The notes under the pieces: model-generated
Seen by the model: only the letters and a program-made list of their open reading frames with translations
Database searches by the model: none
What the model was told of the DNA's origin: nothing
From: Lachnospiraceae bacterium 3-1
GTDB taxonomy: Bacteria; Bacillota; Clostridia; Lachnospirales; Lachnospiraceae
DNA: 64,000 bases
Direction: 5' to 3'
Assembly (NCBI GenBank): GCA_000403255.2
Contig: KE159582.1
Span: forward strand, 298,724 to 362,723
Translations under genes and position numbers: made by a program
Part shown: in pieces, positions 14,419 to 46,132 of the stretch
How the letters are laid out: the number at the start of each line of letters is the position of its first letter
Position numbering within the stretch: the first letter of the stretch is position 1

Positions 14419-14428
14419 GAAAGCCGCC

Positions 14429-30402: not shown

Positions 30403-30434
30403 CACGATCAGTTGTAGTGATATGACTGATTGTG
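30403..30434 (+). terminator. hairpin after thiN
   Basis: CACGATCAGT (30403-30412) pairs with ACTGATTGTG (30425-30434) with one G-T pair; GGCCTATTTTATC follows. Plausible but weak terminator for the murE-thiN operon. The whole spacer 30336-30760 holds only this and repeat A copy 1. Confidence 0.45.
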
Positions 30435-30445
30435 GGCCTATTTTA

Positions 30446-30630
30446 TCTTATAGGAAAGACCGTGCTGCTATAAAGTGTTAAAGTCTGTGACTTTCCTATA
30501 AGAGAAAAATATGGATGCGCACTCGTGCGAATAGAAGATGTCACTGCGTGACCGCACTCGGCGCAGCAAAGTGTGCAAGCCCCTCATGATTGAGGGGTAG
30601 GGGAGCTGAAGTGGGCTTGTCCACTTTGTT
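30446..30630 (+). repeat. structured intergenic repeat A, copy 1
   Basis: Full-length copy. Stem I TCTTATAGGAAAG / CTTTCCTATAAGA (30446-30458 with 30491-30503), hairpin CGCACTCGTGCG, shared segment GACCGCACTCGGCGCAGCAAA, stem III CCCCTC / GAGGGG (30580-30597), stem IV AGTGGGCTTGTCCACT (30610-30625). Other copies: 34740-34896, 38588-38767, 46019-46099. Confidence 0.8.
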
Positions 30631-30760
30631 CTTGTCCAAGTCATGATTTCTTAGAAGAATGATGTGATTTTAGGGAAGATAGTGAAAATTTGTCAAAAAA
30701 TGTAGAAATTTGTTGTTTCTTAAGATATAATGAATATAGATTTTATGGGAGGGTTTGTTT

Positions 30761-31813
30761 ATGAAAAAAGTAATCATATGGAGTGTGGTTGCTCTGTTGT
30801 CTTTTACACTTACGGGGTGTGGGAAGTGTAAGCATGAGTATGATGATGGGGTGATTACAAGGGAGTCAACTTGTACAGAGGAAGGGGAAAAAACTTTTAC
30901 TTGTTCTTTATGTGGAGAAATTAAAAATGAAAGTGTAGTGAAGAAAGATCATGTGTATAAGGAAGAAGTTGCAAAAGAGCCTACATTTGATGAAGAAGGA
31001 GAGAAAACTTTTACTTGTGAAAATTGTGGTGATTCCTATGCAGAACCTATTCCTGTCAGGGATGATGAAGTTGTTGTAACGGTAACAAATAAATCTAATT
31101 TACCAAAAGATATAAATGCAGGCAGATTTTCTGATAGAATTGAAGTTACCTTTGATGTGATGAACAATTCAGATAAAGTTATCAAAGGGGTTCAGGGGAA
31201 TTTGTCAGTTTGTGATTTGTTTGATGAAGAGATTTTGAAAATAAGTTGTGATTTTACTGGAAATAGTATTCCAGCGGGGAATTCTATCACTGTAAATGAT
31301 TTGGGAATTGATGTAAATGAGTTCATGGATAGTCATATAAAATTTTATAATACTGATTTTTCGGATTTAAAATTTGAATATGAGGTTACAAATATTGTAT
31401 ATGATGATGGTTCAAGTACCAACGAAGAATCTTCAACAGAATCGATAGATAGCGCAAAGGTAACAGTGAATGTAACTGGGAAACAGAATGTAGAAATAAA
31501 TTATAATGCAGGAATATATTCTCCACGAGCAGAATTTTCGTTTGAGGTCTATAATAATACGTCAAAGGATATCAAAGGAGTGCAAGGAGTACTTACAATT
31601 AAAGATTTATTTGGGGTAGATATTATGTCGTCTAATTTGGATTTTACAGGTCAAACGATTGGTGCAAATGGTAGCGCTGTTTTTTCTGGACTGGGAATTG
31701 ATATAAATCAATTTATGGATAATCATGTTAAGGTATATAATACGGATTTTTCAGATTTACAATTTGAATACAAAGTAAATGCAATCGTTTACTCTGACGG
31801 AACAACAGAATAA
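30761..31813 (+). CDS. lipoprotein with Cys-pair motifs and two tandem domains
   Basis: 350 residues, surface-anchored. Lipobox LTGC with lipidated C20. Residues 21-85 hold two repeated EEGEKTFTC-x2-CG units, each a possible metal-binding knuckle. Then two homologous domains of about 105 residues (about 92-200 and 245-350), both containing INAGRFSDR or NAGIYSPR, DIKGVQG-type and FYNTDFSDL or VYNTDFSDL segments: a tandem duplication. No family recognised. The ATG at 30761 follows GGGAGG by seven bases; a TTG at 30755 is less likely. A TATAAT lies at 30726-30731. Confidence 0.8.
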   Translation: MKKVIIWSVVALLSFTLTGCGKCKHEYDDGVITRESTCTEEGEKTFTCSLCGEIKNESVVKKDHVYKEEVAKEPTFDEEGEKTFTCENCGDSYAEPIPVRDDEVVVTVTNKSNLPKDINAGRFSDRIEVTFDVMNNSDKVIKGVQGNLSVCDLFDEEILKISCDFTGNSIPAGNSITVNDLGIDVNEFMDSHIKFYNTDFSDLKFEYEVTNIVYDDGSSTNEESSTESIDSAKVTVNVTGKQNVEINYNAGIYSPRAEFSFEVYNNTSKDIKGVQGVLTIKDLFGVDIMSSNLDFTGQTIGANGSAVFSGLGIDINQFMDNHVKVYNTDFSDLQFEYKVNAIVYSDGTTE

Positions 31814-31814
31814 A

Positions 31815-31946
31815 GTACAGGTACGCTGTTATCTGAATAACGGATATGAATTGGTGGCAGATATGGTAAATTCAGACCAGTCAAACCCGAAAGTAAAGTT
31901 ACATTACCGAAGAAAGGAAAGATGTTGTAATTCCTATAAATATTGT
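31815..31946 (+). pseudogene. possible coding remnant
   Basis: After the lipoprotein stop, a start-less frame reads VQVRCYLNNGYELVADMVNS and continues to a TAG, ending in a basic run (VKLHYRRKER). Composition is protein-like, but there is no start or ribosome site and I do not recognise the parent. Probably the tail of a deleted gene. Confidence 0.25.
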
Positions 31947-31953
31947 CTACAAT
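31925..31953 (+). promoter_or_regulatory. promoter of Uma2-family gene
   Basis: TTGTAA (31925-31930), 17-bp spacer, TACAAT (31948-31953), 24 bp before the start codon; GGAGG lies between. Confidence 0.65.
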
Positions 31954-31977
31954 AGAATTAGGAATGGAGGTATAAGG

Positions 31978-32511
31978 ATGGATGCACTGAGAAAAGAAGA
32001 AATTTATACGCTAGATGATATCTATGCGCTGCCAGACGGAGAAAGAGCAGAATTGATTGATGGAAAAATATATTATATGGCTCCACCAAATACAAGACAT
32101 CAAGCGCTTGTAATGGATTTATCTTATCAGATAAAAGACTATATCAGACATAATCATGGAGAATGTAGTGTGTTTCCAGCCCCATTTGCTGTATTCCTGA
32201 ATGAAAATGATAAAAATTATGTTGAGCCAGATATATCAATTATATGTGATAAAAATAAGATTACGAATAAAGGGTGTAATGGCGCACCTGATTGGGCGAT
32301 TGAAATTGTTTCACCAAGTAGTAAACAAATGGACTATTATAAGAAGCTATTTAAATATCGAACAGCAGGAGTCAGAGAATACTGGGTAGTAGATCCGGAA
32401 AGAGAACTTGTGACAATATATAATTTTGAAAAAGATAGTATGGAAGAATATTCTTTTGATGTAGATATACCAGTGGGAATTTACGAAGGAGTTTCATTAA
32501 AAATAGAGTAG
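31978..32511 (+). CDS. Uma2-family (DUF820) PD-(D/E)xK nuclease-like protein
   Basis: 177 residues. Uma2 proteins adopt a restriction-endonuclease-like fold and are expanded in cyanobacteria and many Firmicutes; their role is not established. Visible active-site pattern: EPD (D85), EIVSPSS (E109) followed by a Lys-rich helix (KQMDYYKKLFKY), and VREYWVVDPE. Own promoter and terminator, so a single-gene unit. Frequent horizontal transfer of this family fits the accessory surroundings. Confidence 0.88.
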   Translation: MDALRKEEIYTLDDIYALPDGERAELIDGKIYYMAPPNTRHQALVMDLSYQIKDYIRHNHGECSVFPAPFAVFLNENDKNYVEPDISIICDKNKITNKGCNGAPDWAIEIVSPSSKQMDYYKKLFKYRTAGVREYWVVDPERELVTIYNFEKDSMEEYSFDVDIPVGIYEGVSLKIE

Positions 32512-32538
32512 ATTTTAAAATAAGTATGACGGTTAAGG

Positions 32539-32575
32539 AAAGCATTTGGAAACAAAAATCCAGATGCTTTTTATT
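32539..32575 (+). terminator. intrinsic terminator after Uma2 gene
   Basis: AAAGCATTTGGA (32539-32550) / TCCAGATGCTTT (32559-32570) followed by TTATT. Confidence 0.7.
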
Positions 32576-32669
32576 ATACAAAAAATAAAAAATGCTTGAA
32601 AGACAATATTTACAAGACTTTCAAACTGTCATCGAACATATGTTACTGCAAAACTGTGGAAATATAAAG

Positions 32670-32698
32670 TTGAAATAAGAGACTGGATGTGGTAGTAT
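32670..32698 (+). promoter_or_regulatory. promoter upstream of ychF unit
   Basis: TTGAAA (32670-32675), 17-bp spacer, TAGTAT (32693-32698). Confidence 0.55.
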
Positions 32699-32737
32699 AA
32701 TATACTGTGTCAGACTCTTTTATTCTATAAAGGAGAT

Positions 32738-32965
32738 GTGATTGGAAACGTGATGATATTCAGAAGTAAAGCCAATGCACTATCAAAAGTACGAAATCTT
32801 CTGGAATACAGTTACAAAGGTTCTACAATCGAACAACGTAAAATTACTGTGGTGAGTATGTTTTTCTATGCACAGGAAAATCAAATCATACCAATAAGTC
32901 CAGTTGTAAAATTAGTTAAAATGCTAAAAACCCCTGAAAATAAAGGAGAAGTGAGAGTATTATGA
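32738..32965 (+). CDS. small hypothetical protein coupled to ychF
   Basis: Up to 75 residues; internal starts at GTG 32750 or ATG 32753 (MIFRSKANALSKVRN) are possible, and none has an ideal spacing to AAAGGAG (32730-32735). The frame is open to a stop overlapping the ychF ATG by ATGA, suggesting translational coupling. Basic, helical, no recognised domain. It may be a real small gene or merely a leader. Confidence 0.4.
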   Translation: MIGNVMIFRSKANALSKVRNLLEYSYKGSTIEQRKITVVSMFFYAQENQIIPISPVVKLVKMLKTPENKGEVRVL

Positions 32966-34059
32966 AACTAGGAATCGTAGGTTTACCCAATGTAGGAAAA
33001 AGTACATTGTTTAATTCATTGACAAAAGCAGGAGCAGAGTCTGCGAATTATCCCTTTTGTACTATAGACCCCAATGTGGGCATCGTAACAGTCCCAGATG
33101 AACGTTTGAAAAAGCTGGGGGATTTGTATCAGTCTAAGAAGGTGACGCCAGCAGTGATAGAATTCGTAGATATTGCTGGATTGGTAAAGGGTGCCAGCAA
33201 AGGAGAAGGATTAGGAAACCAGTTTTTATCCAATATCCGTGAGGTGGATGCGATTGTCCATGTGGTGCGGTGCTTTGAAGACAGCAATATTGTTCATGTA
33301 GACGGAACTATTAACCCGGTGCGTGATATTGAAACAATAAATTTGGAATTAATTTTTTCTGATATTGAAATTCTGGAACGAAGGATTGCCAAAACCAGTA
33401 AGGGCGCTCGGATGGACAAGACTCTTGCCAAAGAGCTGAAGCTGCTAGAGCGGGTAAAAGCCCATTTGGAAGAAGGAAAGCTTGCCAAAACCTTTGAAAT
33501 AGAAGACGAGGACGAGGAACTTTGGTTTAAAGAATATAACCTGCTTACAGCAAAACCTGTGATTTATGCAGCAAATGTGGCAGAGGATGATTTGATAGAA
33601 GACGGAGCCGGAAATAGTTTTGTCCAGGAAGTTCGGAAGAATGCAGCCAAAGAGCATTGTGAAGTGTTTGTCATCTGTGCACAGATTGAGCAGGAAATCG
33701 CAGAACTGGATGAGGAAGAAAAGGCAATGTTCTTAGAGGAGCTTGGGTTAGAGGAGTCTGGTCTGGAGAAATTAATTAAGGCAAGCTACAGCTTGTTAGG
33801 ATTAATTAGCTATTTAACTTCGGGTGAAGATGAGACACGTGCATGGACCATCAAAAGGGGTACAAAAGCGCCCCAGGCAGCAGGAAAGATTCATTCTGAT
33901 TTTGAACGTGGGTTTATTCGCGCGGAAGTAGTGAATTACCAAGACTTATTAGATTGCGGTTCCTTGGCAGCAGCGAAGGAAAAGGGCTTGGTGGGCCTAG
34001 AGGGAAAAGAGTATGTGGTGAAAGATGGTGATGTCATTCTGTTCCGGTTTAATGTATAG
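32962..34059 (+). CDS. ychF: YchF/OLA1-type ribosome-associated ATPase
   Basis: 365 residues. Obg-superfamily P-loop protein that prefers [23 protein letters not shown] (P-loop GLPNVGKST), G3 [10 protein letters not shown], a coiled-coil insert (about 130-200) and a C-terminal TGS domain ([16 protein letters not shown]... DVILFRFNV). Housekeeping gene, highly conserved. Binds the ribosome and is linked to stress tolerance in other bacteria. Confidence 0.97.
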
Positions 34060-34151
34060 ACATGTAAATATTGTCCCAAAAAATCTAGGAGCAGCACATA
34101 ATTTTTATCTAAAAAACTATTCCCTTTTTGTTACTTTTGTAGCATAATGAA

Positions 34152-34176
34152 TTTATTCCCGTGGGCAATAAGTAAG
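34152..34176 (+). repeat. degenerate fragment of repeat B
   Basis: TTATTCCCGTGGGCAATAAG resembles the first part of repeat B (TTATTCCC-CGAGCAATG) and is followed by TAAGG. Only the leading 25 bases or so can be matched. The rest of the spacer 34060-34290 shows nothing recognisable. Confidence 0.35.
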
Positions 34177-34290
34177 GCAGCAGGATGAAGAAGTATTTTA
34201 ATGTCCCGTTGCTTTGGTTGTGATTTTTGGCTCACAAAATAAAATACAAAATTAAATTTGAAAATAGGAAGAAAGGCAAAGGTGGCGGTT

Positions 34291-34473
34291 ATGAAAGGTG
34301 CACTAGGAACTACAGAAGCGCGTAGAATTTTGAATACAGGACAGAAAGAAACTAAAAGAGAGATGGCACTCAGAATGCTCAAAGGCGGAGAGCTGTCTCT
34401 AGATAAGATTGCAGAGTACACAGGGCTTAAATTAGACGAAGTGGAACAGCTTGCAGAGATTAGGAAATTATAA
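34291..34473 (+). pseudogene. truncated C-terminus of Rpn/PD-(D/E)xK transposase-like protein
   Basis: 60 codons from an ATG with AAAGGTGG six bases ahead. The end, KIAEYTGLKLDEVEQLAEI, is the typical C-terminal tail of the Rpn family recombination-promoting nucleases / putative transposases; the nuclease domain is missing. So this is a remnant, although it may still be translated. Confidence 0.5.
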
Positions 34474-34486
34474 ATTAAGAAAAATT

Positions 34487-34514
34487 TTGCTTGCTTGTTT
34501 TGAAAAGGTATGAT
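34487..34514 (+). promoter_or_regulatory. promoter of ABC-F leader transcript
   Basis: TTGCTT (34487-34492), 16-bp spacer, TATGAT (34509-34514). Start of RNA would be near 34521, about 30 nt before the leader peptide. Confidence 0.5.
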
Positions 34515-34549
34515 ACACTGTCAAAAATAATAAAGAAAGAGGTGGAGAG

Positions 34550-34573
34550 ATGTTTCATTTTTCTTGCAGATAG
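34550..34573 (+). CDS. leader peptide MFHFSCR of ABC-F attenuator
   Basis: Seven-codon open frame (ATG at 34550, TAG at 34571) preceded by a strong AGAGGTGGAG site. Placed just after the promoter and just before nested hairpins and a terminator, the layout used by antibiotic-sensing leader peptides of ABC-F and Erm genes. Stalling of a drug-bound ribosome here would change the downstream folding. Confidence 0.6.
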   Translation: MFHFSCR

Positions 34574-34582
34574 TAATAGAAT

Positions 34583-34738
34583 ATGCGCAGCGGCTGTGAA
34601 TTTTTCACAGAGAATGACTGCGCTTGCTGCAGGAAAGAAATAATCTCTCTGACTCTATCACGTTGTACCGTTCTATCATAAAGCGGTATGGTTGTGTTTA
34701 TTGAGCTGTAGGAATTGACTTTCCTGCGGCTCTTTTTC
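34583..34738 (+). promoter_or_regulatory. attenuator: competing hairpins and terminator of ABC-F gene
   Basis: Anti-antiterminator: GCGCAG (34585-34590) with CTGCGC (34618-34623), enclosing CTGTGAA / TTCACAG. Antiterminator: GCTGCAGGAAAG (34626-34637) fully complementary (one G-U) to CTTTCCTGCGGC (34719-34730). Terminator: GAGCTGTAGGAA (34703-34714) with TTCCTGCGGCTC (34721-34732), then TTTTT. The antiterminator and terminator use the same bases, so they exclude each other. This is a complete transcription-attenuation design. Confidence 0.7.
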
Positions 34739-34739
34739 A

Positions 34740-34896
34740 TCTTATAGGAAAGACCTTCCCTATAAGAGAGAAATAAAGATGCACATTCGTACGAAAGGCA
34801 TTATGTGGCGAAAGCGACCGCACTCGGCGCAGCAAATCGTCCAAGTCCCTCATGAATGAGGGATTTCGAGAGCCTCAGCGGACTTGTCCGCTTTGT
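34740..34896 (+). repeat. structured intergenic repeat A, copy 2
   Basis: Stem I shortened (TCTTATAGG / CCTATAAGA), shared CGACCGCACTCGGCGCAGCAAA, stem III TCCCTC / GAGGGA (34846-34863), stem IV AGCGGACTTGTCCGCT (34877-34892). It lies between the attenuator terminator and the ABC-F ribosome site. Confidence 0.8.
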
Positions 34897-34954
34897 ACGC
34901 TTTTTCGGATATATGTTTTTCGATAAGGTAAAAGGCAAGGGAGGAGTTAAAGTT

Positions 34955-36448
34955 ATGTCGATGATAAAAGTAGAAAACCTTACATTTTCTTATCCGGAAA
35001 GTTATGACAATATTTTTGAGGATGTCAGCTTTCAGATTGATACAGATTGGAAGCTAGGGTTTATAGGCAGGAACGGAAGAGGAAAGACAACTTTCTTAAA
35101 TCTTTTAATGGGGAACTATGAATACAGCGGCAAAATTATAAGCTCTGTACAGTTTGATTATTTTCCATATCCAGTCTCAGATAAAAGTCGTTGGACGGGA
35201 GAAATTCTGCAAGAAATATGCCCTTTTCGGGAAGAGTGGGAGCTTTTGCGGGAATTATCTTATCTTGAAGTGGCGCCGGAGGTACTCTGGCGGCCCTTTG
35301 AAACCTTGTCAAATGGAGAACAAACAAAAGTAAAGCTAGCTGTTCTTTTTTTGCGAGAAGGGAATTTTTTGTTGATTGACGAGCCAACCAATCATTTGGA
35401 TTTTCGGGCAAGGGAAATGGTATCAGCATATTTGAAGAAAAAAAAGGGATTTATCTTAGTTTCCCACGACCGTCATTTTATGGACGGCTGTGTGGATCAT
35501 ATCCTTTCTTTAAACCGGGCGAATATTGATGTGCAGAGCGGAAATTTTTCTTCCTGGATGGAAAATTTTAAGCGGCAGCAAGAATTTGAGGCTGGGAAAC
35601 AAGAACGGCTGCAAAAGGATATTCGTCGTCTGCAAAAGGCGGCAAAACGCACAGGAGCTTGGTCAGAGCAGGTAGAAAAATCAAAAAAGGGCGTAAAGAA
35701 TTCTGGTTCCAAACCGGATCGTGGCTATATTGGACACAAGTCGGCTAAAATGATGAAGCGTTCTAAGGTAATTGAGGCAAGGCAGTCTCAGGCAGTGGAA
35801 GAAAAGTCGGGACTTTTGAAAAATGTAGAGAGGGCGGAGCATTTAAAAATTTTGCCTTTAGACTATCACAAGGATACGCTTGTTTCTTTTTCAGAGGTTG
35901 CTGTCTGTTATAGAAATAGCGCCATCTGCGCACCTGTTTCATTCAATGTGTGTCGGGGAGAGCGGATTGTATTGGATGGCAGGAACGGCAGCGGAAAAAG
36001 CAGCTTGCTAAAACTTATGTTAGGAGAAGTAATAGACCATATAGGGACAGTTGCAATCGGTTCCAATCTTGTGATTTCCTATGTGCCTCAGGATACTTCC
36101 GCTTTAACAGGTGGGCTGTCAGAGTTTGCAGAGGAGAATAACATAGAAGAAAGTCTTTTTAAGGCGATTTTGCGGAAGCTGGATCTTGAACGGGTACAAT
36201 TTGAGAAGGATATTTCAGATTTTTCCGGTGGTCAGAAGAAAAAAGTTCTGTTGGCAAAAAGTCTTTGTCAGCAGGCCCACCTCTATGTATGGGATGAGCC
36301 CTTTAATTTTATTGATGTGTATTCTCGTATGCAGGTGGAACAATTAATTCGTGAGTTTTCCCTTACCATGGTGTTTGTAGAACATGATAAAGTGTTTCGG
36401 GATATGGCGGCAACAAAGATTGTGACGGTGGAGCCATCGTTGGGGTAG
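34955..36448 (+). CDS. Lsa-type ABC-F ribosomal protection protein
   Basis: 497-residue soluble twin-ATPase protein. The N-terminus (MSMIKVENLTFSYPESYDNI) and GFIGRNGRGKTTFLNLL closely resemble the Lsa family, which dislodges lincosamides, streptogramin A and pleuromutilins from the ribosome. ATPase 1: Walker A 38-45, signature LSNGEQ, Walker B LLIDEPTNHLD. A basic interdomain linker (about 205-295, rich in Lys/Arg) is the antibiotic-resistance domain. ATPase 2: GRNGSGKSS (about 341), FSGGQ, VWDEPFNFID. No membrane helices. ATG at 34955 follows GGGAGGAG. A leader peptide and terminator precede it, supporting drug-inducible control. Actual spectrum is not known. Confidence 0.88.
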   Translation: MSMIKVENLTFSYPESYDNIFEDVSFQIDTDWKLGFIGRNGRGKTTFLNLLMGNYEYSGKIISSVQFDYFPYPVSDKSRWTGEILQEICPFREEWELLRELSYLEVAPEVLWRPFETLSNGEQTKVKLAVLFLREGNFLLIDEPTNHLDFRAREMVSAYLKKKKGFILVSHDRHFMDGCVDHILSLNRANIDVQSGNFSSWMENFKRQQEFEAGKQERLQKDIRRLQKAAKRTGAWSEQVEKSKKGVKNSGSKPDRGYIGHKSAKMMKRSKVIEARQSQAVEEKSGLLKNVERAEHLKILPLDYHKDTLVSFSEVAVCYRNSAICAPVSFNVCRGERIVLDGRNGSGKSSLLKLMLGEVIDHIGTVAIGSNLVISYVPQDTSALTGGLSEFAEENNIEESLFKAILRKLDLERVQFEKDISDFSGGQKKKVLLAKSLCQQAHLYVWDEPFNFIDVYSRMQVEQLIREFSLTMVFVEHDKVFRDMAATKIVTVEPSLG

Positions 36449-36474
36449 TAGTAGATGGCTGCAAATGGTGGAAG

Positions 36475-36514
36475 TCAAATACCCCGCAGCAAGCTACGGG
36501 TCAGGGGTATTTGA
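36475..36514 (+). terminator. hairpin downstream of ABC-F gene
   Basis: TCAAATACCCC (36475-36485) / GGGGTATTTGA (36504-36514), 11-bp perfect stem around GCAGCAAGCTACGGGTCA. No T-tract follows; may be a terminator or part of the adjoining repeat B. Confidence 0.5.
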
Positions 36515-36515
36515 T

Positions 36516-36579
36516 CCTCGCGGCATTCGCCAAATATCCGCGCAAGCGCGGCTGCTTGGCTCATTGCTCGCGGGAATAA
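36516..36579 (-). repeat. dispersed intergenic repeat B, copy 2 (inverted)
   Basis: Reverse complement of the repeat at 5194-5276, reading TTATTCCCGCGAGCAATG, AGCCAAG, CGCGCTTGCG and ATATTTGGCGAATGC on the - strand. Lacks the 16-base insertion of copy 1. Confidence 0.7.
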
Positions 36580-36696
36580 ACAGAAAGGAACATTTTTGAA
36601 CATAAAATGCGTAAAAGATTCCTTGAAAATATGTTTTTCATTGGGTATAATAGGGCCAGAATTCTAACTTAAATTTAAAGAGAGGAAAACAATATT

Positions 36697-38574
36697 ATGA
36701 AAAAAATTTTCACCAAGCGGCTTTCTATTTATATGGCAGCGGCGTTTTTTTTAACAATTTCCGCTATATTTGTATTACAGACAGTAGTAAATCAAAGAAG
36801 CAATTTAGTATCCAGCCAGAATAAATTGACAGGCGTAAGGGAGCAGATAGCCAATAATGAAGAGAATATTGCAAAGCTAACGCAGAATCTCAGTGAGGAT
36901 AATCTGGCGAAAGCAAGAGCGTTTGCAGATATGCTTGCGATGGACCCTTCGATTGTGGGTGACATCAGTAAGCTCAATAAAATCAAAGAAAGACTGCAGG
37001 TGAATGAATTACATATTATTGATACAAATGGTATCATTATAAGCAGTACGATCGAAAATTATCTTGGATTTGATATGGCAAGCGGCGAACAATCTAAGGC
37101 TTTTTTAGCGATTATAGACGACCCTTCTGTGGAAATTGCCCAAGAGCCTCAGGTGAATGTGGCAGAAGGAATTGTAATGCAGTATATTGGTGTAGCCAGG
37201 AAAGATGCCAAGGGGTTTGTCCAGATAGGGGTACGTCCAGAAGTCTTAGAAAATATGCTTGCTGGAACTGAGTTAGATGTGGTTTTAAGAGGGATTGAGT
37301 TTGGAGAGAAAGGATATGTGTATGCCATTGACCAAGAAAGTGGATTATTATTGGCACATCAGAATGCAGATTTGATTGGTACATTAGCTGTGGATGCCGG
37401 ATTTCCAGAGAATTTTTCAGAGCACGGTAAGGCAGTGATTGATGGAGTAAAGGGCTATTACCAGGAAGAGGAATATGGGGGACAGATATTTGGCACGTTT
37501 CTGCCAGCAAATGAATATTACAGGGAACGAAGGGATCAGACTCTGGTAGTGTCTTTTAGTATGCTGCTTATTTTTGGTGTGCTGTTGGTAACCATCAACC
37601 AGTTTGTGGACCGTAAGATTGTTCAGGGGATTGACCGTATTACCAATTCTATGAAAGAAATAGCAGAAGGGAATTTTGAAATTCGGGTAGATGAACAGGA
37701 GAATCCTGAATTTTCATTGCTTTCTGACAGTATCAATAAAATGGTGAAAAATATTTGCAATAATATGGAAGAAAACGCAAGGCTTTTAGAACGGCAGAAG
37801 GATGATGTAGAACATAATCTGAGGCTGATTCAGAATGTGAAAAATGCTTGTACAGATTTGGATCATGTGTCCGGGGAAACCTTAGAAAATGCAGATAGTA
37901 TTCATCATGGAACTGGGGAACAGGAAAAGGCGGTACAGGATTTAAAGCGCACGATGAACGAGCTTATGCAGGAATTGAACAAGAGCGTGGATACATCTGT
38001 TCATATAACATCAGAAACCAAGGAAACTGCAGATAGGATTATGCAGACCCAGTCCCAGATGGAACAGCTGAAAGGCTCTATGCAGAAAATCAGTGAGATG
38101 TCTATGGCGATTGAAAAAATCATTGATGAGATTAATTCCATTGCGCATCAGACGAATATGTTGTCTTTGAATGCTTCCATTGAGGCTGCAAGAGCAGGGG
38201 AAATGGGAAGAGGATTTGCGGTGGTAGCTACTCAGGTGGGTGAGCTTGCAGCTAGAAGTGCGCAGGCAGCACGGGAAACCAATGAATTGATTACCAATTC
38301 TATTTTAGCTGTAGAGGATGGGCAGGCCATTACGGAACAGACGGTAGCAGCGTTTGGGGTGGTAGTGGAAGATATTGCAAAAGCTAATCAGGACGTAGAA
38401 AAGATTACAAATATGGTAAGACAGAATGTATATACGGTAGAGCATGCGGTTGACCAGATTGGAAGAATTTCCAATGTGGTGGAAGAGAATGTGCAGATTT
38501 CACAAAATACAAAACAGGTTTCCTCCCATATGGCGGATATTACTGGAAAACTGTTGGAAATGGTGGAGGCTTAG
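36697..38574 (+). CDS. methyl-accepting chemotaxis protein
   Basis: 625 residues. TM1 (about 9-29), periplasm-side dCache-like sensor (30-280) holding motifs such as FVQIGVRPE and [12 protein letters not shown]2 (about 281-303), HAMP (304-360), and a cytoplasmic signalling helix bundle whose tip is [18 protein letters not shown] (about 494-511). The ligand is unknown. No che genes adjoin it, but csrA at the right edge of the window hints at a flagellar locus nearby. Single gene, followed by repeat A copy 3. Confidence 0.95.
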
Positions 38575-38587
38575 GTTGAATTTTTCA

Positions 38588-38767
38588 TTCTATCGGAAAG
38601 ACCTTGTCACGCTAACGCGTAAAAGTGTCTTCCGATAGAATAAAAAATAATATGCGCACTCGTGCGAATAGAAGATGTCACTGTGTGACCGCACTCGGCG
38701 CAGCAAATCGTCCAAGTCCCTCATGAATAAGGGATTTAGGGAGCCCTAGCGGACTTGTCCGCTTTGT
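38588..38767 (+). repeat. structured intergenic repeat A, copy 3
   Basis: Stem I TTCTATCGGAAAGAC (38588-38602) / GTCTTCCGATAGAA (38627-38640), then CGCACTCGTGCG, GACCGCACTCGGCGCAGCAAA, TCCCTCATGAATAAGGGA and AGCGGACTTGTCCGCT. Relative to copy 1 the stem I pair A-T is C-G, a compensatory change. Stem I followed by TAAAAAATAA may also terminate the chemoreceptor transcript. Confidence 0.8.
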
Positions 38768-38874
38768 TTTAAAAGAGAAAAACAATATTTTTCTGGCATT
38801 TTTCCGGTTTTTCTGGTAAAATAAAAATAATTATGCAGTACATAGACAATCTATGGAAAAAAGGAGTGTTGATT

Positions 38875-39777
38875 ATGGCAGAAACAATGGAAGATTACAA
38901 AGATGAATTGGAAGCGTCTTTCCGTAAAATCAAAGAAGGAGATATTATTTCTGGAACTGTGATCGGTGTAAGTGAAGAGGAAGTGACGCTGGATTTGAAA
39001 TATTATGCCCAGGGAATTATCAAAGTAGAGGACTTGAGCAATGACCCGGATTTTCAGATTATGGAAGAGGTTCATCCAGGGGATGTGATAGAGGCTACTG
39101 TGGTTCGGATAGACGACGGAGAAGGAAATATTCAGTTATCAAAGAAAGAGGCGAATGATATCCTTGCTTGGGAAAAGCTAAAGACCTGTCTGGAGGAGGG
39201 CACAGAGCTTTCTGTTAAGGTGGCAGGGATTGTGCCAAGCGGTGTGGTAGCGTATGTAGAAGGAATCCGTGGATTTATTCCGGCGTCTCAGCTTGCTCTT
39301 TCTTACGTGGAAGCAACCGAGGAGTGGTTGGGGAAGGAAGTAAGAGTAAGGGTAATTACGGTAGATGAAGCCAGAAAGAAATTGGTGCTTTCCGCTAAAG
39401 TAATTTTGAAAGAGGAGCAGCAGGAAGAACACAACCGTAAGATTGCCAGAATGGTACCAGGAAGTGTCTTGGAAGGGAAAGTGGAATCCTTGATGCCTTA
39501 TGGAGCATTTGTGGATTTGGGAGACGGCATTAGCGGATTGGTGCACATTTCACAGATTTCTCAGAAACGGATTGGGAAACCCTCCGAGGTGCTGAGTGTG
39601 GGACAAGAAGTGAAAGTAAAAGTTTTGAATACCAATGACAATAAGGTCAGCCTTAGTATGAAAGCCTTGGAAGAAGAAATGGTAGATGTGGATAAGCCAA
39701 AAGAGGTGGAGGAATATGTTTCCCATGAGAAGATTTCCACCAATTTAGGTGATTTGCTTTCTAAAATAAAATTATAG
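38875..39777 (+). CDS. S1 RNA-binding domain protein (short ribosomal S1-like)
   Basis: 300 residues with three S1 domains: about 17-85 (GDIISGTVIGVSEEEVTLDL), 103-170 and 186-258 (the best-conserved, GSVLEGKVESLMPYGAFVDL). The domain number is lower than in E. coli S1 and typical of Firmicutes S1-like proteins, which bind mRNA loosely or not at all to the ribosome. Start at 38875 follows AAGGAG (38861-38866); an upstream in-frame ATG at 38833 lacks a site. Monocistronic or co-transcribed with the next gene. Confidence 0.9.
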   Translation: MAETMEDYKDELEASFRKIKEGDIISGTVIGVSEEEVTLDLKYYAQGIIKVEDLSNDPDFQIMEEVHPGDVIEATVVRIDDGEGNIQLSKKEANDILAWEKLKTCLEEGTELSVKVAGIVPSGVVAYVEGIRGFIPASQLALSYVEATEEWLGKEVRVRVITVDEARKKLVLSAKVILKEEQQEEHNRKIARMVPGSVLEGKVESLMPYGAFVDLGDGISGLVHISQISQKRIGKPSEVLSVGQEVKVKVLNTNDNKVSLSMKALEEEMVDVDKPKEVEEYVSHEKISTNLGDLLSKIKL

Positions 39778-39888
39778 GAATCGTTAAGAGTTTGAAGTAC
39801 ATCGACATGTTATCACTGGAGTAGGATATAAATATAGTAGACAGGTAATTACCTGTGGAATAGAATTTTAGAAAGGAGCTACAGCGCC

Positions 39889-40674
39889 ATGAGAGTAAAT
39901 GGAATACAGAGCACGGATGCTACAGGAACACAGAACGTTACTTCCGTGTCAGGCCAGGGGGAAGGTTTTTCTTCTTATTTACAGACCACAGCTTCTTTGG
40001 AACAGATTTTTGAAGAGGCAGCCAAAACATACAATGTGCCAAAGAACCTGATAAAAGCCATTGCCAAAGCAGAATCTGATTTCAGGCCGGATGCAACGTC
40101 TAAGGCTGGGGCACAGGGAATTATGCAGCTAATGCCAGCAACTGCAAAAGAGCTGGGTGTGTCAGATTCTTATGATCCTTACCAAAATATTATGGGAGGG
40201 ACAAAGTATATCAGCCAAATGCTGCAAAAATACGATGGAGATATCAGTCTTGCATTGGCGGCCTATAATGCAGGAAGCAACAATGTGGCAAAATATGGTG
40301 GAATTCCGCCTTTTAAAGAGACGCAGAATTATGTGGTAAAGGTCACCCAGTATATGAATGATGGAGTTGCAGTACCCAATGCTTCTTATACGGTAAATGG
40401 CAGCAATCAGAATGGGTCTGCAAAGGGGAATATTCAGGCAGCTACAGTGGAAGAGGCAGAGGAGAGCTATTATCAGAGCATTTTAGAGCAGCTTTTTTCC
40501 TATGAGGATTATTTGAAATTCATTGAATTGTACACAAAGATACAGGAAGCTCAGCAGGAGAAGGAACAGGAAGAAGCCAGGAAACAGCAGGAGGAACAGT
40601 CAGATTCCTATCGTGCTTATCAGGACCTTAAATATAGTCCAGTGGCAATGAACCTGTTGGGAGGCGGCATCTAA
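39889..40674 (+). CDS. lytic transglycosylase (SLT domain), no signal peptide
   Basis: 261 residues. Goose-lysozyme/SLT fold (about 38-160) with catalytic E62 (KAESDF), [10 protein letters not shown] and [13 protein letters not shown]. Cleaves the MurNAc-GlcNAc bond of peptidoglycan. There is no signal peptide, so export would have to be by another route, for example a flagellar apparatus, as with rod-cap enzymes. The C-terminus is a Gln/Glu-rich coiled coil (about 195-245). Its stop overlaps the dut start (TAATG). Confidence 0.92.
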
Positions 40675-41108
40675 TGGAAGAAATTAAAATCAAATATTTT
40701 GATCCGGATATGCAAAAGCTTGAGTACATAGATGGGAAATCCGACTGGATTGACCTTCGGGCAAGTGAAACAGTGGAGTTGAAAAAGGGAGAGTTTAAAT
40801 TGATTCCCCTTGGGGTAGCCATGGAGCTTCCAGCAGGCTATGAAGCGCATGTGGTGCCTAGAAGTTCTACCTTCAAGAACTATGGTATTTTGCAGACCAA
40901 TAGCTGTGGCGTGATTGACGGAAGCTATTGTGGAGATCAGGATATGTGGAAGATGCCAGTATATGCTACCCGGGATACGGTGGTGAATAAAAATGACAGA
41001 ATTTGTCAATTTCGCATTATGGCCAATCAGCCTGAGATTATATTTAAGGAAAAGTCTTTCCTGAGCAATGAAGACCGGGGAGGGTTTGGAACTACAGGTG
41101 TTAAGTAA
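40674..41108 (+). CDS. dut: dUTP diphosphatase (trimeric type)
   Basis: 144 residues. Hydrolyses dUTP to dUMP, keeping uracil out of DNA. Motifs in order: [39 protein letters not shown] and the C-terminal RGGFGTTG lid. The insertion DQDMWKMP is typical of a Clostridia/phage sub-branch. Overlaps the transglycosylase stop. Confidence 0.92.
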
Positions 41109-41216
41109 AAGAGGTTACAGTCCTTTGATGGGTATGTGGTGAAATAGGGTTGAATTCGTCAAATTGTATATAAAATAAAAAAAATTTCGTTAATGTGACG
41201 AAGGGATAAGAAAAGG

Positions 41217-41260
41217 ATACTCTTTCTTGGCAGATTAGACAGGAAAGGGTATTTCTTTTT
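41217..41260 (+). terminator. hairpin with T-tract before msmX-like gene
   Basis: ATACTCTTTCT (41217-41227) / AGGAAAGGGTAT (41241-41252), followed by TTCTTTTT. It terminates dut or attenuates the sugar-ATPase gene 94 bp downstream. Confidence 0.6.
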
Positions 41261-41353
41261 GTACAGTTGGCAGGTGGTAATTTTCATGGAAGTCTGATAG
41301 TATATTCACATAAAGAATTCTGCTTGGACAGAAGATTACAGGAGGAAGTTAAA

Positions 41354-42466
41354 ATGGCAAGTTTATCATTAAAGAACATTTGTAAAAAATATCCTAATGG
41401 TTTTGAAGCTGTTAAGGATTTTAACCTTGAAATTGAAGACAAAGAATTTATTATTTTCGTTGGACCTTCAGGATGTGGTAAATCTACAACACTTCGTATG
41501 GTAGCAGGTTTGGAAGAAATTTCTTCTGGTGAGCTGTCTATTGACGGAAGAGTCGTGAATGATGTAGAGCCTAAGGATAGAGATATCGCGATGGTATTCC
41601 AGAACTATGCTCTGTATCCTCATATGACTGTATTTGATAATATGGCATTTGGATTGAAATTGAGAAAAGTTCCGAAGGAAGAAATCAAACAGAAAGTAGA
41701 AGAAGCAGCAAGAATTCTTGATTTGGAGAAATTATTAGACCGTAAGCCGAAGGCTTTATCTGGTGGACAGAGACAGCGTGTGGCTATGGGACGTGCGATT
41801 GTTCGTGAGCCAAAGGTATTCCTGATGGACGAACCTTTATCCAACTTGGATGCAAAGCTTCGTGTACAGATGCGTGCTGAGATTGCTTCCTTGCATCAGA
41901 GATTAGGTGCAACCATCATCTATGTAACACATGACCAGACAGAGGCTATGACACTGGGAACCAGAATCGTTGTATTGAAGGATGGAATTATCATGCAGGT
42001 AGATTCCCCCCAGAAATTATACAATGAGCCAGATAACTTATTCGTAGCTGGATTTATTGGATCACCTCAGATGAACTTCCTGGATGCTGTTTGCAAGATT
42101 GAAGGAGACAAAGCTTTCTTAAAGATCGGCGATAATGCTATCGCATTGCCACCTGAAAAATCAAAGAAACTGGTGAATGGTCATTACAACGGCAAGACTG
42201 TTGTAGTTGGTATCCGTCCGGAAGATATTGATGATTCTAAAGCTTCCCTGGAAGCACATAAAGACAGTGTATTTAACACGAAGGTTACTGGATATGAATT
42301 ACTTGGTTCCGAAGTATTATTATACTACACCATCAATGGAACTAGCATGACTGCAAAAGTTTCTTCCAGCACACCAGCACGTCTTGGCGATGCTATTAAG
42401 ATTGCAATGGATGTAAATGCAATTCATGTATTTGATAAAGAAACAGAATTGACAATTACTCACTAA
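41354..42466 (+). CDS. multiple-sugar ABC importer ATPase (MsmX/UgpC type)
   Basis: 370 residues. Walker A GPSGCGKST (37-45), signature LSGGQRQRVAMGRA (about 135), Walker B FLMDEPLSNLD, H-loop THDQTEAM, then regulatory OB-fold domain (240-370). No permease or binding protein lies nearby, so like B. subtilis MsmX it probably energises several sugar importers encoded elsewhere. Codons look biased for high expression compared with neighbours. Start at 41354 follows GGAGG; the upstream extension to 41267 is not supported. Confidence 0.93.
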   Translation: MASLSLKNICKKYPNGFEAVKDFNLEIEDKEFIIFVGPSGCGKSTTLRMVAGLEEISSGELSIDGRVVNDVEPKDRDIAMVFQNYALYPHMTVFDNMAFGLKLRKVPKEEIKQKVEEAARILDLEKLLDRKPKALSGGQRQRVAMGRAIVREPKVFLMDEPLSNLDAKLRVQMRAEIASLHQRLGATIIYVTHDQTEAMTLGTRIVVLKDGIIMQVDSPQKLYNEPDNLFVAGFIGSPQMNFLDAVCKIEGDKAFLKIGDNAIALPPEKSKKLVNGHYNGKTVVVGIRPEDIDDSKASLEAHKDSVFNTKVTGYELLGSEVLLYYTINGTSMTAKVSSSTPARLGDAIKIAMDVNAIHVFDKETELTITH

Positions 42467-42497
42467 TTGGGTAATATAATTTCATAACACGAATGTT

Positions 42498-42533
42498 CGG
42501 AAGCGATGCAGAAATGTGTTGCTTCCGTTTTTT
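42498..42533 (+). terminator. intrinsic terminator after sugar ATPase gene
   Basis: CGGAAGC (42498-42504) / GCTTCCG (42521-42527), then TTTTTT. Confidence 0.85.
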
Positions 42534-42572
42534 CCCTATGTGGGGTAAATAATAACATAATGGAGAGAAAAT

Positions 42573-43679
42573 ATGCTGTCAAATCATAAATTACAGGTTA
42601 CATTAGAAGAAATTAAGGAGATATCCCGTATCGATCTTGCGCTTTACAGTGACAAAGGAAAGCTGCTGGCATCCACCTATCAGCCAGAGGAGGAATTGGA
42701 AGCAGCAATCAGTTTTTTTGCAGATTCCATGGCAGAGAGCCAGATGTTGTCAGGCTGCCATTTTTTTAAAATTGTAATTGAAAATGAACTAGAATATATT
42801 TTACTGGCTCGTGCCAGCGGAGAAGAAGCCTACATGATTGGCCGGCTTGCTGCCTGCCAGATCCGTAATATGGTCAGTGCATTTCGGGAACAGTTTGACA
42901 GGAACAGTTTTATGCAGAATGTGGTGTTGGGAAATATGCTTGTAGTAGATATGTATAATAAAGCGAAGAAGCTACATATCGAAGCGGCGCAACGGGTGGT
43001 ATTCATCATTGAAGTATCCGGAAAAAAAGACGGGGTTGTGATGGAAACGGTGAAAAATCTTTTTGCTGCAACCACCAGAGATTTTATTACCGAGGTAGAT
43101 GAGAAATCTGTGATTTTGGTGAAAGATGTCCGTGACATTGCAGAGGATAGGGAATTGGAAAGCCTTGCAGAAATGATTGTGGATAATCTTCAAACAGAGG
43201 CAATGGTAAGAGTGCGGGTAGGATATGGCAATCGAGTGGATTTGCTACAGGATATTGCACGTTCCTATCAGGAGGCAAAAATGGCTCTGGAAGTAGGGAG
43301 TATTTTCTATGTGGAGGAGCACACGATTTCTTATGCAAATCTTGGAATTGGCCGATTGATTTATCAGATTCCCATTAGCTTGTGTGAGATGTTTTTAAAA
43401 GAAGTGTTTGGGGAGAATATACCAGATATTTTTGATGAAGAGACTACAGTGACAATCAATAAGTTTTTTGAAAATAATTTGAATATTTCGGAGACAGCAA
43501 GACAGTTGTATGTACACAGAAATACTTTGGTTTATCGGCTGGAGCGGATTGAAAAGACATTAGGACTGGATATCCGAACCTTTGAGGATGCTATGCTGTT
43601 TAAAATAGCGCTGATGGTGATTTCGAATATGAATTATCAAAGAAGCCTCTTAGAGCATGAAACAAAGAAGGAGGAGTAG
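42573..43679 (+). CDS. CdaR/PucR-type transcriptional regulator
   Basis: 368 residues. N-terminal sensor part (1-125), central GGDEF-like diguanylate-cyclase-related fold seen in CdaR proteins (about 135-280), C-terminal PucR helix-turn-helix (NISETARQLYVHRNTLVYRL, about 301-320). CdaR relatives respond to sugar acids such as glycerate/glucarate; the ligand here is unknown. Lies 106 bp after the sugar ATPase, separated by a terminator, so separately transcribed; it might still regulate carbohydrate uptake. Confidence 0.88.
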   Translation: MLSNHKLQVTLEEIKEISRIDLALYSDKGKLLASTYQPEEELEAAISFFADSMAESQMLSGCHFFKIVIENELEYILLARASGEEAYMIGRLAACQIRNMVSAFREQFDRNSFMQNVVLGNMLVVDMYNKAKKLHIEAAQRVVFIIEVSGKKDGVVMETVKNLFAATTRDFITEVDEKSVILVKDVRDIAEDRELESLAEMIVDNLQTEAMVRVRVGYGNRVDLLQDIARSYQEAKMALEVGSIFYVEEHTISYANLGIGRLIYQIPISLCEMFLKEVFGENIPDIFDEETTVTINKFFENNLNISETARQLYVHRNTLVYRLERIEKTLGLDIRTFEDAMLFKIALMVISNMNYQRSLLEHETKKEE

Positions 43680-43743
43680 ATAGGGCTTTTATGACAAAAA
43701 AATGTCTTTTCACACCAGTTTAAGCAGAAAAAGTAAGGAAACT

Positions 43744-43771
43744 TTGGAAAAAAACCGATATATGGTATAGA
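43744..43771 (+). promoter_or_regulatory. promoter of coiled-coil protein gene
   Basis: TTGGAA (43744-43749), 16-bp spacer, TATAGA (43766-43771). Confidence 0.5.
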
Positions 43772-43843
43772 ACGGATGTGAGAGCGCTAAATATTTGGCT
43801 TTTACATGAAATGAAAACGGTGCCAGCAGAAAGGGGAAAAGAC

Positions 43844-44737
43844 ATGAAAATAGGAACAATGGCAGAACAGGGTACAGTTGTAAAGAACAATTATGGGAAG
43901 GAACGTCTGGAAAATAATACCGAAAACACCCAGCAGGAGAAAAAGGGACAGAGTATCCAGGCTTCAGAATTAAATTTGTTCCAGGATGGAATTGCAGAGA
44001 AAAAGAAAAAGGCAATGCAAGATGCCATGGATTTTGTGAAACAGCAATTTGAGTCAGATTCTGAAGTAGATGCGGTGATCGATGAATGCCGGGAGCAGAT
44101 TGCAGAAGGTAAAGAACAGGCGTTAGCGGCTTCTAGGGAACTGAAGGATATAAAGGAGCAGAAAAAACAGTTACAGGAAGAGTATCCAGATGGCGGAGAA
44201 GATTATGAAGCCTATATGAAAGACCTGAATAAGATGGAAAGCTACTGGAAGGGAGAAATGGCCAATGGACAGTCTATGGTGTCTGACTCTACCAGTGCAA
44301 TTAAATCCATTAAACAAGAATCATTGAAACATCATGGCATGATAGACGCTACGAAAGCAGCAGAGGAAACCATGAAAAGTGCCAGTGATGAAATCGTAGG
44401 AATGCTTCTCAACGAATCCAAAGAGGAAGTGGATGAGAAAATAGAAGAAACAGTGGAAAAGGCAGAGGAAGCCAAAGAAGAGAAGACAGAACAGGAAGAA
44501 AAGATGAAGGACGCTCAGATTGAGCGGGAAAAGCAGGCGCAGGAAATTGAGGAAGAATTAGAGAAGCGCAAGAAAATGAGGGAAAACAGACTGAATGCAC
44601 AAATGAAAAGGCCCGCATTTGACAAAGATATTCTTAGCAAGCAACAGGAAATTTTGCAAAATACCCAACAGATTTTGGAGGAACAGAGCTTATTACCAGA
44701 AGAAATCAAAGGAATTGTGGTAGATTTTAATTTATAA
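43844..44737 (+). CDS. hypothetical coiled-coil protein
   Basis: 297 residues, soluble, dominated by Glu/Lys-rich coiled coil (about 45-130 and 185-270; for example EEAKEEKTEQEEKMKDAQIE). No signal peptide, no enzyme motif. Start at 43844 (MKIGTMAEQ) follows AAAGGGGAAAA; the upstream ATG at 43778 is less likely. A short N-terminal segment and general build resemble other uncharacterised Lachnospiraceae proteins such as the one at 57956, but I cannot show homology by eye. Function unknown. Confidence 0.7.
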   Translation: MKIGTMAEQGTVVKNNYGKERLENNTENTQQEKKGQSIQASELNLFQDGIAEKKKKAMQDAMDFVKQQFESDSEVDAVIDECREQIAEGKEQALAASRELKDIKEQKKQLQEEYPDGGEDYEAYMKDLNKMESYWKGEMANGQSMVSDSTSAIKSIKQESLKHHGMIDATKAAEETMKSASDEIVGMLLNESKEEVDEKIEETVEKAEEAKEEKTEQEEKMKDAQIEREKQAQEIEEELEKRKKMRENRLNAQMKRPAFDKDILSKQQEILQNTQQILEEQSLLPEEIKGIVVDFNL

Positions 44738-44822
44738 ATCAAATTGTAGAAAAAGAGTGTAAGAATGGTTCTTTCGCCTTGCGTCTATCTTTTCTGTAGT
44801 CTTTATACCTGCAAAACAATAA

Positions 44823-46001
44823 ATGACAGAAAGCGGTGGAAAAGTGAAAAGCAGAGTAAAGAGGACAGGAATGGGATTTCTGCTGTTGCTTGTGCTTGTG
44901 TTTTCGCAAGTGACAGGCTGTGGAAATCTTCTGACAGGAAAATTTGAGAGCAGCAGTAGAGCAGTCCAGGTATCGAAGGACACCAATGGCGAGACATTGG
45001 AAATTCATTTTTTAGATGTAGGGCAGGGAGATGCCACTCTGATTAAGCAGGGAGACCATGCCATGCTGATTGATGGCGGGAATAATGACAAAGGAACTGC
45101 GGTGCAGTCTTATTTACAGTATCAGGGAATTCAAAATTTGGATTATGTGATTGGGACCCATCCAGATGCTGACCATGTAGGTGGATTGGATGTGGTAATG
45201 TATAAGTTTTCTTGGGATACTGTGATACTTCCTGATTTGCAGAAGGATACTAAGACTTATCAGGAAGTATTAAAGGTAATTGAGGATAAAGGAAAGAAGA
45301 TTACATATCCTGTAGCAGGAGATGTTTATAATCTGGGGAATGCGGAGTTTACTATAATCGCTCCTGTAAAGGAAGACTATGGGGACAATTGGAATGAGTA
45401 TTCGGTAGGCATTCTTTTGCAGTTTGGAGAGAATCGGTTCGTATTTACTGGAGATGCAGAAGAAGAGGCAGAGCAGGACATGATAGCGCAAAAGATAGAT
45501 TTGTCGGCAGATGTTTTGAAAGCTGCCCATCATGGAAGCGACACTGCCAATACGATGCCATTTTTGGAGGAAGTGAATCCTGTGTCGGTGGTGATAAGCT
45601 GTGGAGAAGGAAATAGTTATGGACATCCCAGAGCTGGAGCTATGAATAATTTTCGAAGCATTGGCGCTAAAGTGTATCGGACAGACGAGCAGGGAACTAT
45701 TGTAGTGGTTTCGGATGGGAGGGAAATTACCTGGAACTGTTCTCCCAGTGAAAGCTGGAAAGCGGGAGAGCCTGGTGGAACTCAAGAGAAGGAGCTGGAA
45801 AAAGCAGGAACAGATCGAGGAGAGACAAACAGGGAAACGGCAAAAACAGAATACATTATCAATACCAATACAAAAAAATTTCATGAGAAATCCTGTGGCA
45901 GCGTGGAGCAGATACAGGAAGAAAATAGAGAATATAGTAATTTAACGACACAGGAATTGGAAGAGCAGGGATATGAACCCTGTAAAAGATGTAATCCTTA
46001 A
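44823..46001 (+). CDS. ComEC-like metallo-beta-lactamase lipoprotein with C-terminal Cys motif
   Basis: 392 residues (or 385 from a GTG at 44844, which has GGTGGA just ahead). Lipoprotein signal ending VTGC (C33). MBL domain (about 57-290): FLDVGQGDATL, GTHPDADHVGG, FTGDAEEEAE and AAHHGSD, the metal-binding set of the ComEC/Rec2 nuclease domain. The C-terminal 50 residues carry INTNTKKFHEKSCGSV and GYEPCKRCNP, a four-residue Cys/His zinc-type module often attached to secreted nucleases. Extracellular DNA or nucleotide hydrolysis is plausible but unproven. Confidence 0.88.
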   Translation: MTESGGKVKSRVKRTGMGFLLLLVLVFSQVTGCGNLLTGKFESSSRAVQVSKDTNGETLEIHFLDVGQGDATLIKQGDHAMLIDGGNNDKGTAVQSYLQYQGIQNLDYVIGTHPDADHVGGLDVVMYKFSWDTVILPDLQKDTKTYQEVLKVIEDKGKKITYPVAGDVYNLGNAEFTIIAPVKEDYGDNWNEYSVGILLQFGENRFVFTGDAEEEAEQDMIAQKIDLSADVLKAAHHGSDTANTMPFLEEVNPVSVVISCGEGNSYGHPRAGAMNNFRSIGAKVYRTDEQGTIVVVSDGREITWNCSPSESWKAGEPGGTQEKELEKAGTDRGETNRETAKTEYIINTNTKKFHEKSCGSVEQIQEENREYSNLTTQELEEQGYEPCKRCNP

Positions 46002-46018
46002 AAAGAATATGGGTAAGG

Positions 46019-46099
46019 CGCACATTTGCATGAAAGGTATTATGTCGCTAAGGAGACCGCACACGGCGTAGAAAAACAGCCAAGTCCCTCAATCATGGG
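46019..46099 (+). repeat. structured intergenic repeat A, copy 4 (truncated)
   Basis: Retains CGCACATTTGCATGAAAGG, ATTATGTCGC, GACCGCACACGGCGTAG and CCAAGTCCCTCA but lacks stem I; its 3' half has become part of the convergent terminator at 46072-46112. Confidence 0.65.
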
Positions 46100-46112
46100 C
46101 TTGGCTGTTTTT
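46072..46112. terminator. bidirectional terminator
   Basis: AAAAACAGCCAAGTCC (46072-46087) pairs with GGGCTTGGCTGTTTTT (46097-46112). A-tract and T-tract on both sides serve the convergent genes ending at 46001 (+) and 46133 (-). Confidence 0.9.
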
Positions 46113-46132
46113 CTGTAAATTGTATCAAGTTC

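Follow-up and report, generated by a model that had tools for sequence, protein, structure and literature searches.

The window analysed here is a stretch of 64,000 nt of contig KE159582.1 of Lachnospiraceae bacterium 3-1 (positions below follow its own numbering), which contains four copies, all on the + strand, of a structured intergenic repeat. With moderate confidence, these copies are regarded as a non-autonomous, mosaic mobile repeat of Lachnospiraceae that is moved between terminators by a recombinase supplied in trans and reading folded sites, and mobility aimed at terminators is in itself highly probable. Support for a mobile repeat comes from the dispersal and patchiness of the family, its terminator target, places from which it is absent, the unit ends and its mosaicism. 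Genomes, contigs and loci are designated G, C and L, respectively, followed by a number.

A full unit spans approximately 130–190 nt and consists, from 5' to 3', of the T-tract of an upstream terminator, stem I, the branched stem II, hairpin III and the terminator-like hairpin IV with the tail TTTGTTC. Stem I is a palindrome in which an A-run pairs with the bases after the T-tract and partly with the T-tract itself. What follows stem I is variable, and may be the core (stem II to hairpin IV), another branched module with its own terminator hairpin (e.g. L062, L067 and L069) or a stump, while a third module type has been found after stem I in Lachnospiraceae bacterium A2 (L035, L036). Module hybrids are joined at short common words (C24:40541, C21:540377 and C22:541639), and tandem arrays and a partial second stem I are present at many right ends.

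All four places reported for the repeat in an initial annotation of the window hold the family, three of them as full copies and the fourth as a degenerate copy without stem I. In copy 1, a terminator-like hairpin of the host with a T-rich tract after it (30401–30436, from the hairpin test and the sequence) is followed by stem I, a long palindrome (30444–30508; model R2, E 7e-12), and by the core (30512–30631; model R1, E 1e-37), which comprises branched stem II (30516–30565), hairpin III (30580–30597), terminator hairpin IV (30610–30625) and the right end TTTGTTC. Copy 2 likewise lies behind a host terminator hairpin (34703–34732) and has a short form of stem I (34738–34772; R2, E 0.003 on the + and 0.001 on the − strand) and a core at 34776–34898 (R1, E 6e-30). 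Copy 3 consists of stem I (38586–38645; R2, E 4e-13) and a core with its own terminator hairpin at 38748–38763 (38649–38769; R1, E 2e-38). The core model R1 was built from 33 copies including the three full window copies, whose matches are thus by construction; copy 4 (46015–46125; R1, E 2e-4) is outside the model. It lies directly 3' of a gene ending at 46001, and TTTTT follows the inverted repeat that forms its 3' part. No open reading frame (ORF) of 80 aa is present inside the full window copies.

The family is abundant in its own genome (5,080,585 bases in 27 contigs, 96.75% complete). The stem I model gave 127 matches, corresponding to at least 81 distinct places after the two strands of the palindrome had been joined by hand (one place adjoins an assembly gap), and the core model gave 45 matches at no fewer than 43 distinct places, some of them weak; both figures are lower bounds, as 150 candidates were scored with each model. 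A blastn search, in which 40 of 97 candidates were scored, yielded 56 matches. Of the 45 core matches, 25 have a stem I match directly upstream; among the other 20, two represent the opposite strand of a listed match, three are unreadable and in several stem I is short or broken.

Within the genus, stem I was detected at E≤1e-9 in 21 of 29 genomes, with 0 to 68 copies per genome: 68 in G002, 61 in G009, 52 in G013, 51 in G000, 47 in G003, 44 in G026, 43 in G025, 39 in G024, 31 in G018, fewer in the rest and none in eight. These counts miss some types, because G008, one of the eight, carries a copy with a shorter stem I (L279). The covariance-model search of Lachnospiraceae that the initial annotation had proposed found the core at E≤1e-8 in 47 of 329 genomes (about one per genus, ten candidates scored in each), and named carriers include Lachnospiraceae bacterium A2 and Eubacterium sp. 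14-2. In a sample of the phylum, the core was found in 2 of 398 genomes (nine candidates scored in each), namely the own genome and another member of the Lachnospiraceae, by a model that stems from one genus and its near relatives and could miss distant forms beyond this family. Plasmids contained no match to one query and viral contigs none to two exact core patterns. Twelve records filed as phage match stem I; the six inspected are unannotated faecal contigs, one of which presumably carries a bacterial gene, and such records were not counted as phage-borne copies. The copies on human faecal contigs filed as phage (L365–L370) are compact; in most of them, stem I is accompanied by a small UCC-loop hairpin, by stem II and by a plain terminator hairpin. 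At L009 (1488–1497), a run of N, likely a scaffolding artefact, links two copies of the same element start.

The site preference was assessed from hairpins at the host T-tract. A hairpin of −8 kcal/mol or below was found at the T-tract in 47 of 80 stem I copies of the own genome (80 of 81 were tested), as compared to 151 of 960 shuffled sequences, and one of −12 kcal/mol or below in 37/80 and 43/960, respectively. The preference extends to other genera, where 53 of 60 copies could be parsed and the corresponding figures are 44/53 against 87/636 shuffles at −8 kcal/mol and 37/53 against 22/636 at −12 kcal/mol; as read from the strings of these copies, the unit starts 4–8, mostly 6–8, bases 3' of the hairpin. 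The terminators concerned include regulatory ones. An Rfam T-box leader lies directly upstream at seven loci (L007, L008, L065, L293, L339, L311 and L343) among 39 distinct loci scanned, some of which had been picked for a visible T-box motif, so that the proportion is not a frequency; L034, L283, L288 and L300 appear T-box-like by eye but have no listed T-box match. The genes downstream encode PheS (L098, the same place as L007), isopropylmalate synthase (L065) and ValS (L034), and locus L008 of the own genome has an ORF related to one at L034. A tRNA gene lies directly upstream in five of six scanned loci that were picked for a visible tRNA (L290, L292, L304, L309 and L340).

The limits of the unit were judged by eye in sets of near-identical copies (from G264, G131, G187, G150, G320 and G210). 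On the right, likeness ends with TTTGTTC (TTTGTTA in L339), 7 nt after the last C of the hairpin IV stem; on the left, it is limited by the T-tract and an A or G (C in L318), before TTNNATAGG or close variants. Tandem copies are joined as TTTGTTC-TTCTATAGG in L007 and as TTTTTTC-TGTCACAGG in L305. Both unit ends are therefore located approximately 7 nt past a terminator stem. Intrinsic termination occurs at about this distance from the stem. No target duplication was seen by eye at the compared junctions of near-identical copies, which speaks against the alternative, raised in the initial annotation, of inverted-repeat transposon remnants with target duplications. Miniature inverted-repeat transposable elements share with the repeat their small size, non-autonomy and partly palindromic nature, but the repeat has neither an inverted repeat spanning the unit nor, by eye, a target duplication.

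The units would move by means of an enzyme that is supplied in trans and recognizes the folded terminator hairpin with its T-tract as an attachment site. Such an enzyme would cut at the distance from the terminator stem that is common to both unit ends and shift the unit between terminators, in analogy to an integron cassette passing from one hairpin attC site to another. As every unit has a terminator at its end, its terminal hairpin would bring along a new target, giving rise to tandem arrays and to the partial second stem I at right ends. Pairing would be kept with the hairpins as the recognized parts and, in stem I, also with the arms being copied from each other. A recombinase reading folded terminators is considered slightly likelier than a reverse transcriptase, because one rule would then set both ends. 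That intrinsic terminators, attenuators of amino-acid genes among them, serve as attachment sites of a protein-free unit hopping from terminator to terminator by way of either enzyme is a plausible but still tentative proposal. As in integron arrays, the repeat unit ends in a hairpin site, adjoins another hairpin site and forms tandem arrays; unlike cassettes, it is gene-free, and its site looks like a terminator with a T-tract. Integrons are further marked by attC boxes, as quoted in PMC7923331, and an integrase.

The absence of individual copies is illustrated by G016, a related species that is syntenic with much of the window (79–91% identity per block). At the place of copy 2, G016 lacks the element and retains the terminator and T-tract, and the next gene begins 26 bases after the hairpin. 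It also lacks copy 3, although the spacer differs and the insertion point is unreadable; at the place of copy 4 the spacer is a different sequence, and for copy 1, the stretch read by eye showed no copy.

Several observations, on the other hand, weigh against movement between terminators as proposed above. In 33 of the 80 own copies tested, no hairpin of −8 kcal/mol was found at the T-tract; among these is copy 3, upstream of which the hairpin test detected none. No insertion event was observed as such, and the near-identical genomes G025 and G026 showed no copy difference in their aligned stretches. For at least four copies of the own genome (L003, L008, L009 and L018), two or more neighbouring gene families recur beside a copy in another species (L035, L034, L036 and L154), so that either some copies are old or the same terminator has been hit repeatedly. 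Certain copies devoid of stem I begin at its right arm or within it (L320 among them), which fits poorly with two fixed cut sites and looks more like incomplete reverse transcription. Genes beside copies (145 loci, 521 ORFs, some clusters being one place fetched several times) offer no obvious mover: only large ordinary families recur, the largest of which we take to be ABC transporter ATPases and chemotaxis receptors, together with presumed serine recombinases near copies at three places (the L002 region, L039 and L113), an association left as unproven. Finally, in the 29 genomes, neither Y1 transposases (PF01797) nor group II maturases (PF08388) nor reverse transcriptases (PF00078) track copy number.

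A group II intron reverse transcriptase as resident mover and a Y1/RAYT mover were rejected for this lack of relation to copy number, and the ends of the two full Y1 elements of the own genome appear by eye unrelated to those of the unit. G003 (47 copies, 99% complete) and G018 (31 copies, 92% complete) have no match to any of the three families. A TnpB/omega-RNA element was discarded as well, since the own genome, the only one searched, contains no match to TnpB (PF07282). The mover may have been lost, may belong to another family or may be a host enzyme. At L011/L032 (G000:C22, 10.0–10.8 kb), an IS200-like element with a Y1 transposase abuts the outer edge of the stem I of a copy.

The best surviving alternative, possible but doubtful, is retroposition, in which the unit would be an RNA with a 3' end defined by the terminator that it carries, and a reverse transcriptase, perhaps that of a group IIC intron, would insert its cDNA after terminators, making the family a bacterial counterpart of short interspersed nuclear elements. 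The right end of the unit lies where the 3' end of an RNA is expected. The copies shortened on the 5' side at stem I are consistent with this explanation, the module hybrids resemble template switches, and what we take to be the 3' end of a group II intron abuts stem I at L051 (30–130) and L285 (1–110), where intron and element may have picked the same region. On the other hand, copies short at the 3' side also occur (uncounted), and the 60 listed promoter-like sites all fall outside the full window copies (four weaker sites are not part of that listing). The lack of a reverse transcriptase match in G003 and G018 likewise counts against retroposition, draft genomes or lost movers being possible reasons. 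The proposed target is that of group IIC introns, which, according to PMC7923331, have a terminator stem-loop upstream of their insertion site, and the repeat also follows a terminator stem-loop and a T-rich site (47/80 and 44/53 copies, as above). It differs from these introns in its length of approximately 130–190 nt, in having no 80-aa ORF in a full window copy and no Rfam match, and in the lack of group II domains and of an encoded reverse transcriptase.

The structure of the repeat had been described in the initial annotation on the basis of three paired changes, all of which are present in the sequence: TATAGG/CCTATA vs TATCGG/CCGATA in stem I, CCCCTC/GAGGGG vs TCCCTC/GAGGGA in stem III, and AGTGGG/TCCACT vs AGCGGA/TCCGCT in stem IV. 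Its description as a structured family with compensatory changes is borne out on a larger scale. In folding against 200 shuffles each, copies 1, 3 and 2 beat all shuffles (z −4.6, −5.2 and −3.4, respectively). When copies of the own genome are aligned with those of named relatives, both sides have changed in 11 of 28 core pairs (alignment A2, 33 sequences; reached by 0/500 shuffles) and in 8 of 19 stem I pairs (alignment A3, 32 sequences; 4/500), whereas further pair types in the core do not exceed shuffles (33 sequences; 238/500). In the family-wide alignment A4 of 69 distinct cores, which was fitted to the model and leans towards structure, pairing holds in 94.9% of cells, both sides have changed in 25 of 28 pairs, and none of five measures is reached by a shuffle. 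Besides hairpins III and IV, a putative long-range helix that would exclude hairpin IV is supported: 4 of its 13 pairs covary (reached by 66/500 shuffles), its covariation score is reached by 0/500, and family-wide 179 of 235 cells agree, as compared to 112.8 in shuffles (47 distinct of 61 parsed, of 73 rows; this long-range figure is the only one used, the local-arm column being misanchored in most rows).

No known name for the family emerged from the searches either. No match of the element was obtained with Rfam 15 in a scan of the window at gathering score or in 20 loci at E≤0.1 and 20 loci at gathering, in which T-box, tRNA, RNase P and riboswitches adjoin copies; in 30400–46200 at E≤5, three chance-like matches fall outside the full copies, and one mir-4679 match at a copy edge in L306 scores 33 bits (gathering 88). 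No paper on such a Lachnospiraceae family was found in the open-licence literature, and a description elsewhere may exist.

The paired changes had been taken to suggest selection for an RNA fold, in either a non-coding RNA or a mobile RNA-like element. The mobile half of this proposal is upheld by dispersal, patchiness and the terminator target, while the argument for selection from the changes alone is undermined by the behaviour of stem I. Its arms agree within a copy at outward positions 5–8 (242/304 cells vs 179.8 for swapped copies; 0/2000 shuffles; 76/81 copies). Where the host T-tract has a non-T base (positions 9–13), the right arm is complementary in 10 of 46 cases vs 2.3 in shuffled pairings (0/2000), and beyond the T-tract the arms show no agreement. 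Arms of near-identical copies could be compared in G320 (L297/L332), G187, G131 and G264, some other anchors being misplaced (e.g. L338, L306, L340 and L333). The cores of L297 and L332 differ at 1 of 126 positions and the arms at four, every one of them mirrored, and in the G187 and G131 pairs with identical cores the left-arm differences are unmirrored. The T-tract side therefore seems to belong to the host, with the arms sometimes being copied. Mirroring of the host T-tract points to DNA-level templating for part of the covariation signal and shows that paired change here is by itself no proof of RNA selection.

Template switching in replication could also, without any selection and perhaps together with mobility, correct palindromes and generate the paired changes as a by-product. 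The mirrored T-tract bases and the L297/L332 pair would fit such correction, which nevertheless seems unlikely as a full account: it does not readily explain the outer helices of stem II, with strands tens of bases apart, or why the long-range strand agrees with the 3' strand, and the identical-core copies of G187 and G131 can keep an uncorrected arm. Distinctly improbable is a host-maintained functional RNA or cis-regulator, the 3' part of which would switch between two folds. The both-side changes in 25 of 28 pairs and the covarying long-range helix speak for it, but copy number ranges from 0 to 68 within one genus, broken and hybrid copies occur, and neighbours are of many kinds, the repeat lying behind attenuators, genes and tRNAs alike. 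Selection for an RNA of the given strand should favour G.T over A.C, and the excess is small and the test weak. G.T and A.C account for 61 and 49 of 1798 cells, respectively (23 vs 15 pair types by column), or for 58 and 33 without one pair that holds 16 of the A.C; two further pairs hold 26 of the G.T, and without all three skewed pairs the numbers are 32 and 33. Smaller alignments also have G.T slightly ahead, and a tRNA control was uninformative because the program draws permitted pairs only. The slight G.T excess would also agree with retroposition.

Dispersal of the kind known for repetitive extragenic palindromes and bacterial interspersed mosaic elements (REP/BIME), in which single-stranded hairpins would be the substrate of a Y1 (HUH) transposase, is very improbable. 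The family is palindromic, extragenic and multicopy, with a module mosaic and variable linkers, as are REP/BIME (PMC1525189), but it lies directly behind terminators and has a branched core. No Y1 match was found in G003, G009, G013, G018, G024 or G026, each with at least 31 copies, and both full Y1 elements of the own genome differ from the unit in their ends by eye, one of them simply adjoining a copy.

If transfer between terminators by a trans-acting recombinase is correct, the repeat would represent an abundant class of mobile repeats in a common family of gut bacteria, unnamed in the open-licence literature, whose target is a regulatory structure rather than a sequence. An attenuator and the amino-acid or tRNA-synthetase gene behind it become separated by a second terminator-like hairpin, which may alter the control of the gene. 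The family also serves as a caution: since the arms of a palindrome can be copied from one another and from the host, strong covariation among repeats is not necessarily a sign of RNA selection alone. A search for the enzyme is made testable by the place rule (terminator stem plus approximately 7).

The genes neighbouring the window copies encode thiamin pyrophosphokinase, YchF, an ABC ATPase, a chemotaxis receptor, an S1-domain protein and a metallo-beta-lactamase-fold protein. Elsewhere in the window, a long inverted repeat with identical arms of approximately 26 bp (5315–5425) probably belongs to another palindromic repeat family, with a related sequence on both strands of G016 at L272 (5844–5955). 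A 51-nt direct repeat (14418–14468 and 16830–16880; 86% alike, with TATAAT at its end) is perhaps a duplicated promoter region. The stretch 4917–5014 is an 83% match to a stretch of G006 (L281, 10037–10132) and is perhaps a conserved leader or promoter, an ATG following both.

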